Source: Bacteroidota bacterium (lineage in GTDB: Bacteria; Bacteroidota; Rhodothermia; JANXDC01). Taken from it: DNA of 64,000 nucleotides. The stretch covers positions 248,001 to 312,000 of the forward strand of contig AP024675.1 in assembly GCA_025998875.1 (NCBI GenBank), in the 5' to 3' direction. The position numbers and the translations under genes are program-made. Below, in pieces: positions 33,033 through 38,327 of the stretch (position 1 is the stretch's first letter; the number at the start of each line of letters is the position of its first letter). The notes under the pieces were generated by a model. The model made no database searches, was not told where the DNA came from, and saw only the letters and a list, made by a program, of their open reading frames with translations.

Positions 33033-33836
33033 TCAGGGCGAGGGCTGCTCCGGGCCCGCCCAGGGTGGAGGTTCTCCGCGCAGAAACGCCTCGATACCCG
33101 CCTGGCAATCCGGGGTACTGCGGGCAAAAGCGTTGACGAGCGCGGCATACTGCAGGGCGCTCTCCAGGCCTTGAGCGGGCAGATCGGCCAGCAGGCGTTT
33201 GGTCAACGCCACGGCGGAAAGGCTGCTTTTGCGGGCCAGCTCCTGAGCCAACCCCCGGGTGCGCTCTTCGAGCTCTTCTTCCGGAACCAGCTCGGTGACC
33301 AGTCCGATCCGATGGGCTTCCTCAGCGGAGATGAGCTCCCCTCCGAGCAGAAGCCGCCTGGCCTGTATCTCCCCGATGCGGCGCAGGAGGAAGACAGACA
33401 CCAGGGCGGGCACAAACCCGATGCGCACCTCCGGGTACCCGAAACGTGCCCTCGGAGAGGCGAGCACGAAATCGCAGAGGGAGACAAGCCCACACCCCCC
33501 GGCCACAGCTGGCCCATGCACACGCGCAATGGTGATCCGGGGCAGGGTATAGAGCAGGTGGAACAACTCCATAAGGGCCCGGGAATCGGACCAGTTCTCC
33601 AGCGTGGAAGCCTGTTGCATGCGACGCAACTCGGCCAGATCCGCCCCGGCGGAAAAAGCCGGCCCCCGAGCGCCGAGCACAATCACCCGAACAGCAGAAT
33701 CCCGCATCGTCCCCTCCAGGGCCTCCCGCAGAGCCGCGATGAGCTCCCCGTTGAGGGCGTTGCGCTTCTCGGGTCGATTGAGAACGAGCTCGCATACGGG
33801 ACCGGAAACGTGCACCTGAACAAGGTCGTTGCCCAT
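33033..33836 (-). CDS. Enoyl-CoA hydratase/isomerase family protein
   Basis: 267 residues from ATG 33836. Crotonase motifs: NRPEKRNALNGELIAAL, PAFSAGADLAEL (oxyanion hole), HGPAVAGGCGLVSLCDFVLA, ARFGYPEVRIGFVPA with a Glu where the acid/base residue sits. Similar enzymes act on enoyl-CoA, methylglutaconyl-CoA or phenylacetate intermediates. It stands alone, 21-23 kb from the fad operon, and is divergent from the cytochrome oxidase genes. Confidence 0.9.
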   Translation of the reverse strand: MGNDLVQVHVSGPVCELVLNRPEKRNALNGELIAALREALEGTMRDSAVRVIVLGARGPAFSAGADLAELRRMQQASTLENWSDSRALMELFHLLYTLPRITIARVHGPAVAGGCGLVSLCDFVLASPRARFGYPEVRIGFVPALVSVFLLRRIGEIQARRLLLGGELISAEEAHRIGLVTELVPEEELEERTRGLAQELARKSSLSAVALTKRLLADLPAQGLESALQYAALVNAFARSTPDCQAGIEAFLRGEPPPWAGPEQPSP

Positions 33837-33964
33837 CGCCCCTGGCTCCCGCTTCTGGCGCGGAGACGATGATACAACCTCGGCCCGGAACGCGGCAATT
33901 GGGGATGGGCCCCCATCCATAAATTTTCCTTATCCAATCGAAAGGAAAAAACCATACACACCTA

Positions 33965-33993
33965 TTGATCGAGCTTGCCTACGGGGCTACATT
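33965..33993 (+). promoter_or_regulatory. Candidate promoter of the coxB-coxA-sco operon
   Basis: TTGATC (33965-33970), a 17-base spacer, then TACATT (33988-33993), ending 34 bases before the coxB start. The strong GGAGGAGG ribosome site follows. No FNR- or NsrR-like palindrome is obvious in the 190-base divergent gap. Confidence 0.4.
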
Positions 33994-34027
33994 TTTCTTG
34001 TTCAGGGACGCGGGAGGAGGATAGGCC

Positions 34028-34591
34028 ATGACTCCTCAGATGCAGGCTTTTCTGGTCTGGTTGCTCTGGGTAGCCGTGATCGGGATTGTATTCGGTATCG
34101 CCGTCCGGGGTTCGTCTAGCTCATCCCCGCCGGCTCCGGAGCGGGTTGATCGCATGCGCCTGCTCATGTTGCTCGTGCTCCTGGTCCTGGCGGGCTTCGG
34201 GCTGGGCCTCACCTTACCGCGCGCTCCTTATCCCACGGCAGCCGAAGTGCCGGATCGGGTGGTTTTTGTCATGGGCAAGCAGTTCGCCTTCGCGCTGTCG
34301 GAGGATCCCATCACGAATGAGGAGGAATACGAAGAGGCTATTGCCTACGGAAGCGGGGTGGAGGTGAGGCGCGGTGAGCTCATCGAGTTTCGGGTCTCCA
34401 GTCTGGACGTCAACCATGGGTTTTCCCTTTACTCCCCGGACCATCGACTCATCGCGCAGGTACAGGCCATGCCGGGGTACGTAAACCGGCTCCGGACCCG
34501 CTTTTCGGAGCCCGGAGACTACAGCATTCTCTGCTTGGAATACTGCGGCAACAGCCATCATGCCATGCGCGGAGTGGTGAGCGTTCGCTAA
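34028..34591 (+). CDS. Heme-copper oxidase subunit II with CuA site
   Basis: 187 residues: two membrane helices (about 7-27 and 44-64) and a short cupredoxin domain. All CuA ligands are present: His130 in DVNHGFS and the C-x3-C-x3-H-x2-M motif (Cys169, Cys173, His177, Met180) in LCLEYCGNSHHAM. It accepts electrons from a c-type cytochrome or cupredoxin and passes them to subunit I. The compact length is like that of ba3-type (B-family) subunit II. Start ATG 34028 follows GGAGGAGG. Confidence 0.93.
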   Translation: MTPQMQAFLVWLLWVAVIGIVFGIAVRGSSSSSPPAPERVDRMRLLMLLVLLVLAGFGLGLTLPRAPYPTAAEVPDRVVFVMGKQFAFALSEDPITNEEEYEEAIAYGSGVEVRRGELIEFRVSSLDVNHGFSLYSPDHRLIAQVQAMPGYVNRLRTRFSEPGDYSILCLEYCGNSHHAMRGVVSVR

Positions 34592-34608
34592 GCAGAGGAG
34601 GGCTTTCT

Positions 34609-36075
34609 ATGGATGCGTTCCTACGCCTGGAAAATCCCACCGAGGCGCAGCGCGCCTATCGGCGCTGGACGCTCCTGTGGCTCACCACGGCTTTCGTCCT
34701 TTTCGCCGTAGTGGGTCTATTAGGGTTGCTCATGCGGCTCAATCAGGCCCGGTGGCTATCCCTTCCGCCGGAGCTCTTCTACGCCATTTTGACCCTGCAC
34801 GGGCTGGGGATGGTGGGCACGTGGTTCGTGGCCGGCATGGCCGTACTGGGGCAGATCCTGCAGCGCTACGTCAACCCCAGCCTGCGGGCAAGCCAGATCG
34901 CCTATTTCGGAACCCTGATCGCCGTCCTCTTGCTGCTGACCGCCACGCTGATCGGCCGGTTGGGCGTAGGGTGGTACTTTCTCTATCCGTTGCCTTTCTA
35001 TCCGAGCGGCGTATGGCCCCTGTGGGCCTCGTGGGTGTTTCTGGCTTTTCTGACCATCGCCGGGCTTTCCTGGACGATCTGGGTTGTGGACTACCTGCGC
35101 GCCATTGCCTCTCGCTACCGACTCTCGGAGGCGCTGGCCTGGCCCGTCCTGTTCCGGGGACGAGAGCTGGACGTTCCCCCCGTGATCCTGATCGCCACGG
35201 TCTCCCTAGTAGCGGGCCTTATCGGGCTGCTGGCGGCCGTGGTGTTGCTGGTGCTTTACTATCTGGAGGGGCTCGGTACGGGCCTGCGCAACGACGCCCT
35301 GCTCATGAAAAACCTGACCTTCTTCTTCGGGCACGTGTTGGTCAACATCACCATGTATCTGGGCGTGGCGGGCGTCTATGCCCTCTACCCCGGGCTTTCG
35401 GGTAAACCTCCGCTCAAGACGAAACGCTACGTGGCCGCGGCCTGGAACGTGGCGCTTCTGCTTGTGCTGTTGGCCTACTTCCACCACCTGTACATGGATT
35501 TCGCCCAACCCCTCTGGTTTCAGCGTCTGGGACAGATCGCCTCTTATCTGAGCTCGATCCCCGCCGCTGTGGTGACCATCGTCACCGTGCTCGCCCTTAC
35601 CTATGGCGCCCGGGGAGCGTGGACGCCGAGCCGGTTATTCCTGTTTCTGGGCACCATGGGGTGGGCCATCGGCGGCATGGCGGCTGTGATCGACTCGACG
35701 ATCCTGGTCAACTTCCGGTTCCACAACACGCTCTGGGTACCGGGACATTTCCACACCTACTTTCTCATGGGCGTGGTGCTCATGCTCTTGGGCTTTGGCT
35801 TCCGGTTTGTGCATGAGCTCAGCGGACATGAAGAGCCCCCGGCCCGTAGCCTGGGATGGCTGGTGGCCCTGGGAGGATATGGGTTTTTGGCCATGTTCTT
35901 CTACGGCGGCGTGCTGTCCGTACCTCGACGGTATGCGGCCTATCCGGATGAAGTGGCTTCAGGAGCCACCTTGGCCCAACTGGCCACCGTGTTCGTGCTC
36001 CTGCTCCTGACAGGACTGATAATCTACGCATGGCACTACGTGCGGCTTTTGCGGCAGGCCTGGTCTTCGGGCTAG
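34609..36075 (+). CDS. B-family heme-copper oxidase subunit I lacking the active-site Tyr (possible NO reductase)
   Basis: 488 residues, about 12-13 helices. His64 (LHGLGM) and His382 would bind the low-spin heme, His380 (WVPGHFHTY) the high-spin heme, and His242, His292 and His293 (FHHLYMD) CuB. The helix-6 motif that reads GHP-x-VY in oxygen reductases is GHVLVN here, so the cross-linked Tyr is Asn246. Loss of that Tyr is typical of NO reductases, including B-family-derived ones. Whether it reduces O2 or NO cannot be settled from sequence. The coding end overlaps the Sco gene by 46 bases. Confidence 0.92.
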   Translation: MDAFLRLENPTEAQRAYRRWTLLWLTTAFVLFAVVGLLGLLMRLNQARWLSLPPELFYAILTLHGLGMVGTWFVAGMAVLGQILQRYVNPSLRASQIAYFGTLIAVLLLLTATLIGRLGVGWYFLYPLPFYPSGVWPLWASWVFLAFLTIAGLSWTIWVVDYLRAIASRYRLSEALAWPVLFRGRELDVPPVILIATVSLVAGLIGLLAAVVLLVLYYLEGLGTGLRNDALLMKNLTFFFGHVLVNITMYLGVAGVYALYPGLSGKPPLKTKRYVAAAWNVALLLVLLAYFHHLYMDFAQPLWFQRLGQIASYLSSIPAAVVTIVTVLALTYGARGAWTPSRLFLFLGTMGWAIGGMAAVIDSTILVNFRFHNTLWVPGHFHTYFLMGVVLMLLGFGFRFVHELSGHEEPPARSLGWLVALGGYGFLAMFFYGGVLSVPRRYAAYPDEVASGATLAQLATVFVLLLLTGLIIYAWHYVRLLRQAWSSG

Positions 36076-36794
36076 CCACCGGCGGGTATGCCGGGCAGGA
36101 ATGGGTCCTGCCCCGCGAGGAGTACTACCTCTACCGACCCGTGCCGGACGTGCTTGTGGAGACGGTAGCCGGACGACGATGGCTCTCCAGCCTCTGGCAG
36201 GAGCGGCCGCTGTTGATCACCTTCGCCTATACGCGCTGTGGAGGGATCTGTCGGCCCTTTCTGGGCAGGCTGCACAAGGCGCTGGAGGCGATAGGAGGGG
36301 CGGGAAAGGCATACACGGTCGTGGTGCTGAGCATGGATCCCCTCGACAGTCCCAGAAGCATGTACCAGCTCGGCCAGCAGATTCAGCGCGCCCATCGACC
36401 CGGATGGATCTGGGGGATCCTGGCCCGGGAGGCCGACATTCCCCGCCTGCTGCGCGGTGTGGGATATTGGACTCGATGGGATAGCACCCTGCAACAGTAC
36501 GATCATCCGAGCGCCGTAATCGCCGTATCCGGCAACGGAAGGCTTGTGCGGATTCTGGTGGGCAATGAGGTTCGCTCCGGCCCCCTGGCCGATGTGGTGC
36601 GCGAACTGCGGGGCCTCTGGGTGCGCGCCTATCCCCTTCCGGACAGCACGGTGGCCTTCCGCTGTTTTCAGTACGACCCCGATCAGGGATGGAGGCCGGA
36701 TTGGGGGCTGATGCTCCTGTTGCTTCCCGGTCTGCTGGGCCTGGGTTTCATGTTCTGGCTCTTCGGCCACCGAAGCCGCCAATCTCCGGGGTAA
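36030..36794 (+). CDS. SCO1/SenC family copper-delivery protein
   Basis: 254 residues. An N-terminal signal or anchor (AAFAAGLVFGLATGGYAG) is followed by a thioredoxin-like domain with the copper ligands Cys70 and Cys74 in TRCGGICRP and His159 in YDHPSAV. A second hydrophobic segment near the C-terminus (LMLLLLPGLLGLGFMFWLFG) makes it membrane-anchored at both ends, which is not typical of Sco. Known Sco proteins load CuA in subunit II, consistent with its overlap with the oxidase gene. Confidence 0.9.
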   Translation: MALRAAFAAGLVFGLATGGYAGQEWVLPREEYYLYRPVPDVLVETVAGRRWLSSLWQERPLLITFAYTRCGGICRPFLGRLHKALEAIGGAGKAYTVVVLSMDPLDSPRSMYQLGQQIQRAHRPGWIWGILAREADIPRLLRGVGYWTRWDSTLQQYDHPSAVIAVSGNGRLVRILVGNEVRSGPLADVVRELRGLWVRAYPLPDSTVAFRCFQYDPDQGWRPDWGLMLLLLPGLLGLGFMFWLFGHRSRQSPG

Positions 36795-36878
36795 GCGCCG
36801 GCCTTCACCCTCCTCCCCACTTGACTGATCCCGACCACAGGACCCTTCTTTACGGGGCCATTCAGGAGGAAAGCGTCT

Positions 36879-38327
36879 ATGCTCCGCATCGCATCCCGGA
36901 CCCTGCTTGTGGTCGCGCTTACCGGTTCTCAGGCGGCGGCGCAGCCGTTGCGGCAGCAGATCGATCGCCTCCTTGATCAGCCCGCTTTCGCCAACGCCTT
37001 CTGGGGGGTATACATCCAATCCCTCCAGAGCGGGCGTGTCTGGTATGCGCGCAACGCGCAGAAAAGCTTTATGCCCGCCTCCAACCTCAAGCTCTACACC
37101 ACGGCGGCCGCGCTGGACCAATTGGGGCCGGAGTGGCGCTTTCAGACCGCGATTTACACCGACGGCTTTCTTGAGGCCGGCGCGTTGCACGGGAACCTGA
37201 TCGTGCGCGGAGGGGGAGACCCCTCCATCGGGGCCCGGTTTCACAACGGCAATCCCACGGCGGTTTTCGAAGCGTGGGCCGATTCCCTGCTGCGGCGCGG
37301 CATCCGCTTGATCACCGGGGACCTGATAGGCGACGATGACGCCTTTTCGGATACCCTTCTGGGCTACGGCTGGTCATGGGACGATGAGGTTTACGGATAC
37401 AGCGCGCAGATTTCCGCGCTTTCTTTCAACGACAACGTCATCGAAGTTCGCCTGCTTCCCGGCGATACCCCCGGTGCCCCGGCTCGCCTTATCGTCCGGC
37501 CCGAAACGCAGTACGTGCGCCTCCTCAACCAGACGCTCACGCTTCCGGCCGACTCGGCGCTCCAGGAAAGCTACGAGCGGGATCGAGCGAGCAACACCTT
37601 CTACCTGCGCACCCGTCTGCCCATGGGCCGGGAGGAAACCGAGCTGCTGGCCATCCATAACCCGACGCTCTACTTCGTCACCGTCTTGTATGAAACGCTC
37701 CAGCGCCGGGGTATACAGGTACTCGGTCGTCCCCGGGATGGAGATGAGCTCTCCATCAAACCCGACTACGAGCGATGCAGGCTACTGTGGACCCACTACT
37801 CTCCCCCACTCCGGGAGATCGTGCGCGTGATCAACAAGGTGAGCCAGAACCTGTATGCAGAACTCCTGCTGCGCGCGCTGGGCCGGGAACGTTTCGGAAC
37901 CGGAACCGCCTCTACCGGCGTGCAGGCGGCCATGGAGACCTTTCAGCGGGCGGGTATCGATACCAGCCGCCTCGTTATGGTCGACGGCAGCGGGCTTTCT
38001 CGCATGAACCTGGTCACCCCGGAGATGACCGCCCGCCTACTGGCTTTCATGTACCGGCACCCCCATGGGGAGGTGTTCCTTCAATCGCTCCCCGTTGCCG
38101 GTCTGGACGGCACCCTGGCCAACCGCATGCGCGATGGTCCGGCCAGGGGTCGGGTATGGGCCAAGACGGGCTTTGTAGCCCACGTACGCACGCTCTCTGG
38201 ATACGTACAGACCCGCCGCGGGGAATGGCTGCTCTTCAGCCTTATGAGCAACCACTACACGGTCCCCACCCGGATGGTCAACGAGGCACAGGATCGCCTG
38301 CTGGAACGGCTCGTCGAAGGGCGATGA
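36879..38327 (+). CDS. dacB: D-alanyl-D-alanine carboxypeptidase/endopeptidase (PBP4/DacB family)
   Basis: 482 residues with signal peptide (ASRTLLVVALTGSQAAAQP). Penicillin-binding motifs: S68-x-x-K71 in MPASNLKLYT, S-x-N in NKVSQNLYAE and KTG in WAKTGFVAHV. The long insert between the first and second motifs (about residues 85-290) is the class C PBP4 hallmark. It trims or cleaves peptidoglycan cross-links in the periplasm. A good AGGAGG ribosome site precedes ATG 36879, and the stop overlaps the next gene by ATGA. Confidence 0.94.
   Translation: MLRIASRTLLVVALTGSQAAAQPLRQQIDRLLDQPAFANAFWGVYIQSLQSGRVWYARNAQKSFMPASNLKLYTTAAALDQLGPEWRFQTAIYTDGFLEAGALHGNLIVRGGGDPSIGARFHNGNPTAVFEAWADSLLRRGIRLITGDLIGDDDAFSDTLLGYGWSWDDEVYGYSAQISALSFNDNVIEVRLLPGDTPGAPARLIVRPETQYVRLLNQTLTLPADSALQESYERDRASNTFYLRTRLPMGREETELLAIHNPTLYFVTVLYETLQRRGIQVLGRPRDGDELSIKPDYERCRLLWTHYSPPLREIVRVINKVSQNLYAELLLRALGRERFGTGTASTGVQAAMETFQRAGIDTSRLVMVDGSGLSRMNLVTPEMTARLLAFMYRHPHGEVFLQSLPVAGLDGTLANRMRDGPARGRVWAKTGFVAHVRTLSGYVQTRRGEWLLFSLMSNHYTVPTRMVNEAQDRLLERLVEGR

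Follow-up and report, generated by a model that had tools for sequence, protein, structure and literature searches.

Enzymes of the sNOR group are widespread and are labelled cytochrome c oxidase by annotation pipelines, and their substrate is disputed, with NO reductase and high-affinity oxidase as the two readings. A three-gene locus in a Bacteroidota bacterium raises this question afresh: is a heme-copper enzyme with asparagine in place of the cross-linking active-site tyrosine a reductase of NO or of O2? We consider it likely that the three genes encode an sNOR-type (NorS–NorY–SenC) nitric oxide reductase fed by cytochrome c or cupredoxin. The dispute is directly testable in this host, since it has three Tyr-bearing oxidases, a nosZ cluster and only this one detected NO reductase, and since a sister species lacks the operon.

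Operon organization and the CuA subunit

The window (the whole analysed stretch of 64 000 nucleotides) contains three co-directional genes on the forward strand. The first (34028–34591) encodes a NorS-like CuA subunit II of 187 residues (Pfam COX2) and the second (34609–36075) encodes a NorY-like heme-copper subunit I of 488 residues (Pfam COX1, 157 bits). The third (36030–36794), the start of which overlaps the end of the subunit I gene by 46 nt, encodes an SCO/SenC copper chaperone (Pfam SCO1-SenC, 31.6 bits) with the residues Cys70-x3-Cys74 and His159; its product is likely to be the CuA assembly factor. The original prediction had delimited the unit as 34028–36075 and had credited the enzyme with its own Sco protein; these coordinates are correct, but the unit runs further, to 36794, with the gene for that very protein. 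Purine-rich ribosome-binding sites precede the genes of subunits II and I, with a good Shine–Dalgarno sequence ahead of the former. As read from the translations, the operon is flanked by a divergent enoyl-CoA hydratase gene upstream and by a DacB-type peptidase (D-alanyl-D-alanine carboxypeptidase) gene downstream, which starts at 36879; the flanks thus limit the operon to three genes. No orf1 is linked after senC, where the DacB-type gene comes next, no gene for a linked 4–5-helix polypeptide follows SCO in the window and no FNR/NnrR-like box was found in front of the operon.

Subunit II is predicted by hydropathy to contain two N-terminal transmembrane helices and matches the CuA domain of ba3 oxidase in the PDB (E value of 1e-11). 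The CuA site that had been predicted as complete is indeed so: it consists of His130 (34415–34417) and of Cys169, Glu171, Cys173, His177 and Met180 in the loop CLEYCGNSHHAM (34532–34567), all conserved in 85/85 sequences. This full ligand set supports the predicted entry of electrons via CuA. The SCO protein is conserved to a similar degree in its first Cys (85/86), second Cys (85/86) and His (84/86). A further motif for heme c, CxxCH, is found in subunit II at 19/84 loci and favours cytochrome c as the donor of electrons. These CxxCH-bearing CuA subunits, which are found at loci including L029, L031, L032, L034, L039, L044 and L050, are ∼320–460 residues long, the heme c being fused to them in the manner of caa3 oxidases.

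Active site of subunit I and its conservation

The metal ligands expected in subunit I were all found on reading the DNA and in the alignment. His64 on helix 2 (34798–34800) is a ligand of the low-spin heme, His242 within the helix 6 motif GHVLVN (35329–35346) and His292 and His293 on helix 7 (35482–35487) are the CuB ligands, and His380 and His382 (35746–35754) coordinate the high-spin and low-spin hemes, respectively. The motif GHVLVN places Asn246 at the position of the cross-linking Tyr, as had been predicted; its codon AAC (35344–35346) is one base away from TAC. Homologues were collected from the host phylum, from plasmids and from 80 GTDB loci, and Asn246 is present in 87/88 aligned subunit I sequences, the window protein included. 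The sole exception is L084, where the sequence is scrambled locally and the His242 ligand is lost as well. Helix 6 of L084 reads FFFTQMTAYATMYLG within an otherwise normal homologue, and probably reflects a compensated frameshift in the assembly. Together with the conservation of ligands in subunit II and SCO, this identifies Asn246 as a fixed feature of the family and not a sequencing error. Because the homologues were picked by similarity to Asn-bearing queries, the count describes conservation within the family and says nothing of the frequency of Asn among heme-copper enzymes.

The surroundings of the site were inspected for a Tyr that might substitute for the missing one. Residue 286, which we take to be the position of the helix 7 cross-link of cbb3 oxidases, is Val, Ile, Leu or Phe throughout the family and never Tyr, so no substitute is found there. 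Tyr290 on helix 7 was rejected as a fixed active-site residue, being Tyr in 58/88 sequences and Phe in 29/88. Two tyrosines of helix 6, Tyr250 and Tyr257 (35356–35379), are invariant in the family, with Tyr250 located one turn below Asn246. In an alignment with the ba3 structure 1EHK, the K-path residues Tyr248 and Thr312 correspond to Tyr257 and Thr323 of the window protein, and the positions of Tyr244 and Ser309 are occupied by Val253 and Ala319.

The AlphaFold2 model of subunit I, built from 37 sequences (pLDDT of 89, pTM of 0.91), contains 12 transmembrane helices as counted from its helix list; hydropathy, a cruder measure, gives 13 segments, and the count of 12 therefore rests on the model. 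In a Foldseek search the model resembled aa3 oxidases (TM scores of 0.79–0.81) more closely than ba3 oxidases (0.72–0.73).

The GTDB loci are distributed over Acidobacteriota, Bacteroidota, Kryptonia, Planctomycetota, Pseudomonadota, Myxococcota, Bdellovibrionota, Spirochaetota and other phyla, and no homologue exceeds 60% identity to the window subunit I. Gene order II–I–SCO is kept at most of the 87 loci. Homologue loci share no common fourth gene; genes for Rrf2, ScdA/YtfE-type proteins, hemerythrin or formate/nitrite transporters adjoin the homologues at a minority of loci only. Formate/nitrite transporter genes follow the operon at L015 (on a Thermomicrobium roseum plasmid), L016 (on a Ruegeria megaplasmid) and L017. 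A scan of IMG/VR returned no relatives. The NCBIfam models leave the family unresolved, as the best match, CtaD/CoxA, scores 83 bits, far under its cut-off of 671.

Phylogeny and relation to known enzymes

The references of the subunit I trees were the two A-type oxidases and the one ba3-type oxidase of the host and the ba3 oxidases of relatives and plasmids; to these were added eNORs of the Gln type from Thermus, Thermomicrobium and class-mates of the host, together with cbb3 and qNOR sequences. The Asn-bearing sequences form one clade (support of 100/100) apart from both the Tyr oxidases and the Gln eNORs, and far from the qNOR sequence. It includes the plasmid-borne operon of Ruegeria (Silicibacter) pomeroyi DSS-3, with 36% identity. 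The reference clades are recovered with supports of 99/97 (B), 100/100 (eNOR) and 98/98 (A). B and eNOR unite at 98/96 with the Asn family outside; one tree places the family on the side of B (97/91), and the addition of long-branch sequences moves it next to A (81). In AU tests a position within B that leaves out eNOR was weakly rejected (p = 0.03), and a grouping with A was not rejected (p = 0.25). Its stem branch is long (2.4 changes per column) and its root is consequently unsettled. The original prediction had called the enzyme a B-family NO reductase. The NO-reductase part of that name is probably right, but 'B-family' applies only loosely to a clade that lies outside B + eNOR (98/96); the accompanying expectation that it would not group with canonical ba3 oxidases is borne out, since the B clade (99/97) excludes it. 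On a bolder reading, the Asn family would be a separate deep heme-copper lineage not derived from B; it would have acquired NO reduction independently, with Tyr250 replacing the cross-linked Tyr as a redox group or proton donor. This strikes us as rather unlikely.

The group to which the enzyme belongs is probably one that has already been named but barely tested, namely sNOR (norSY-senC) or qCuANOR type II. This assignment is based on the Asn, the 12 helices, the two-helix subunit II, the senC gene and the presence of Ruegeria in the clade. Asn is the active-site residue listed for sNOR and CuANOR, as opposed to Gln in eNOR, Asp in gNOR and Glu in cNOR and qNOR, and Silicibacter is named among the carriers of sNOR (PMC8756737, table A4). 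The sNOR operons of Nitrosomonas, Nitrosococcus and Ruegeria (NorSY–SenC–orf1) share with the window the Asn and the order of CuA subunit, catalytic subunit and SenC; Nitrosomonas NorY is compared here by its published description. The operon of Ruegeria pomeroyi continues from SCO to a hypothetical gene, as in norSY-senC-orf1. In the window orf1 is absent, but it is an accessory gene with no catalytic feature; the published sNOR names do not demand it, and one listing has coxBA-senC alone. A group termed nNOR has reportedly been defined by Murali et al. in 2024.

The qCuANOR type II of Bacillus azotoformans and Geobacillus, compared by published description only, likewise combines Asn and senC with a subunit I of 12 helices and a subunit II of two (PMC3475470), but also has a linked 4–5-helix polypeptide that the window operon lacks. 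Published names are not yet firmly established, as the same source places the Nitrosomonas sNOR with type I. The type I enzyme of Bacillus, which likewise has CuA and an Asn in place of the Tyr, has been purified and is an NO reductase (PMC3475470). This enzyme, bNOR or qCuANOR type I of Bacillus azotoformans, also has an SCO gene nearby, but it combines a 13-helix ba3-like subunit I with a one-helix subunit II and is so far reported from Bacillota only (PMC11388526). With 12 helices in subunit I and two in subunit II, the window enzyme is not a bNOR.

The eNORs of Rhodothermus, Thermus, Chloroflexi and haloarchaea are likewise CuA-linked heme-copper NO reductases without the Tyr, but they carry Gln where the window enzyme has Asn246 and form their own 100/100 clade joining the B family, and we reject this identity. 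The suggestion of a Rhodothermus-type enzyme is accordingly not borne out; it is the class-mates of the host genome that carry eNOR. Two eNOR-type subunits I from Thermus thermophilus plasmids (L135 and L136) read GHFK, with Lys at the usual position of the low-spin heme His, where other heme-copper sequences read GHFH or AHFH. Canonical ba3 oxygen reductases (for example PDB entries 1EHK and 7DEG) share the fold, the type of CuA and the aligned K-path pair with the window enzyme; they have 13 helices, the cross-linking Tyr and ∼20% identity to the window subunit I, and are rejected on the missing Tyr and the position outside the B clade. Likewise rejected were gNOR, given Asn246 instead of Asp and three intact CuB histidines, and cNOR and qNOR, given Asn246 rather than Glu and a complete CuA subunit rather than heme c or quinol entry.

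Proposed function and host genome context

The host genome (2.35 Mb) encodes four heme-copper enzymes, namely the window enzyme and three that retain the Tyr (two A-type and one ba3-type oxygen reductases). No further PF00115 match, and hence no other NO reductase of the heme-copper superfamily, was found in it. Genes of denitrification were sought one family at a time. A Sec-type NosZ of a clade II nosZ cluster was identified (973 bits, cut-off of 625), whereas NirK, NirS, NarG and NapA gave no match above the model cut-offs; the molybdopterin matches comprise an enzyme of sulfur-oxyanion type, far under the NarG and NapA cut-offs, and a 632-residue protein which we take to be NuoG. The same-genus relative G001 has neither the Asn family nor NosZ. 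Its chromosome is collinear with the window but runs directly from enoyl-CoA hydratase to DacB, with exactly the three-gene operon missing: in its locus L143 (G001:C3:109000–120000) the flanks aligned to window positions 33803–36938 lie ∼300 bp apart. The operon is thus a clean presence/absence unit. In a phylum sample of ∼395 genomes together with the host, the Asn family has six carriers (the host and five of the sample). NosZ is present in 4/6 carriers compared with 128/395 overall (32%), an association that is suggestive only and not significant (Fisher p = 0.09), and NirK is present in 0/6.

The lost Tyr, the purified Asn-bearing CuA NO reductase of Bacillus and the genome context together suggest NO as the substrate. 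In the proposed mechanism, SCO would load CuA, which would be reduced by a periplasmic cytochrome c or cupredoxin. Electrons would then pass to the low-spin heme (His64/His382) and on to the high-spin heme (His380)–CuB (His242, His292 and His293) centre, a path whose ligands are assigned by homology. Here two NO molecules would be joined to yield N2O and water; as no O—O bond is cleaved, the His–Tyr cofactor would be unneeded, with Asn246 in its place. The Sec-type NosZ of the host could then take over the N2O. Since no nitrite reductase was found in the host, the NO is probably of external or stress origin, and the enzyme may act as an NO scavenger that feeds an NO-to-N2 chain.

Several observations favour an NO reductase: the host already has three Tyr-bearing oxygen reductases and a nosZ cluster, yet no other NO reductase was found; precisely this operon is missing from the sister species, as is nosZ; and some homologues lie beside Rrf2, ScdA/hemerythrin or formate/nitrite transporter genes. 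Against it stand the absence of an FNR/NnrR-like box, the p value of 0.09 for the association with nosZ and the small share of loci with NO-related neighbours. An oxidase role was proposed for the sNOR of Nitrosomonas europaea from its rise under O2 limitation (PMC6967387), and the window enzyme might by analogy be a high-affinity oxygen reductase that works without a His–Tyr cross-link and reduces NO as a side reaction at most. We regard this as improbable: although all three CuB histidines are retained, helix 6 has the invariant Tyr250 and Tyr257 below the site and aa3 oxidases are the closest folds, the cross-link position lacks Tyr in every intact member, residue 286 offers none at the cbb3 position, and Tyr250, at i+8 from His242, is unable to form the i+4 cross-link. 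Moreover, three Tyr oxidases are already encoded in the host genome, and the purified CuA enzyme with the same Asn reduces NO.

The long stem and the loss of a catalytic residue would also be expected of a degenerate or non-catalytic oxidase paralogue, which we consider highly improbable, since the reading frame is intact and the metal ligands of both subunits and SCO are invariant over many phyla; selection evidently maintains the whole electron path. A variant of the NO-reductase reading with compatible chemistry is that NO is reduced in defence against NO stress and not in energy-conserving denitrification. CuA electron entry, which couples the enzyme to the respiratory chain, and the occurrence in the host of a nosZ cluster with cytochrome c argue the other way, but with NirK and NirS not found in the host, NirK in none of the six carriers and Rrf2, ScdA/YtfE-type and hemerythrin genes in homologue neighbourhoods, detoxification is a possibility to be considered tentatively beside a respiratory role of the putative NO reductase.

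The genes next to nosZ were read as NosD, an ABC ATPase, a permease, a NosL-like protein and cytochrome c, of which the family scan identified NosZ only. This cluster (L105; G000:C1:683500–703000, outside the window) adjoins a gene for a 990-residue molybdopterin enzyme accompanied by a fused FeS/NrfD-like partner and by DsrE-like and persulfide dioxygenase-like genes, a set that belongs to sulfur oxyanion metabolism.
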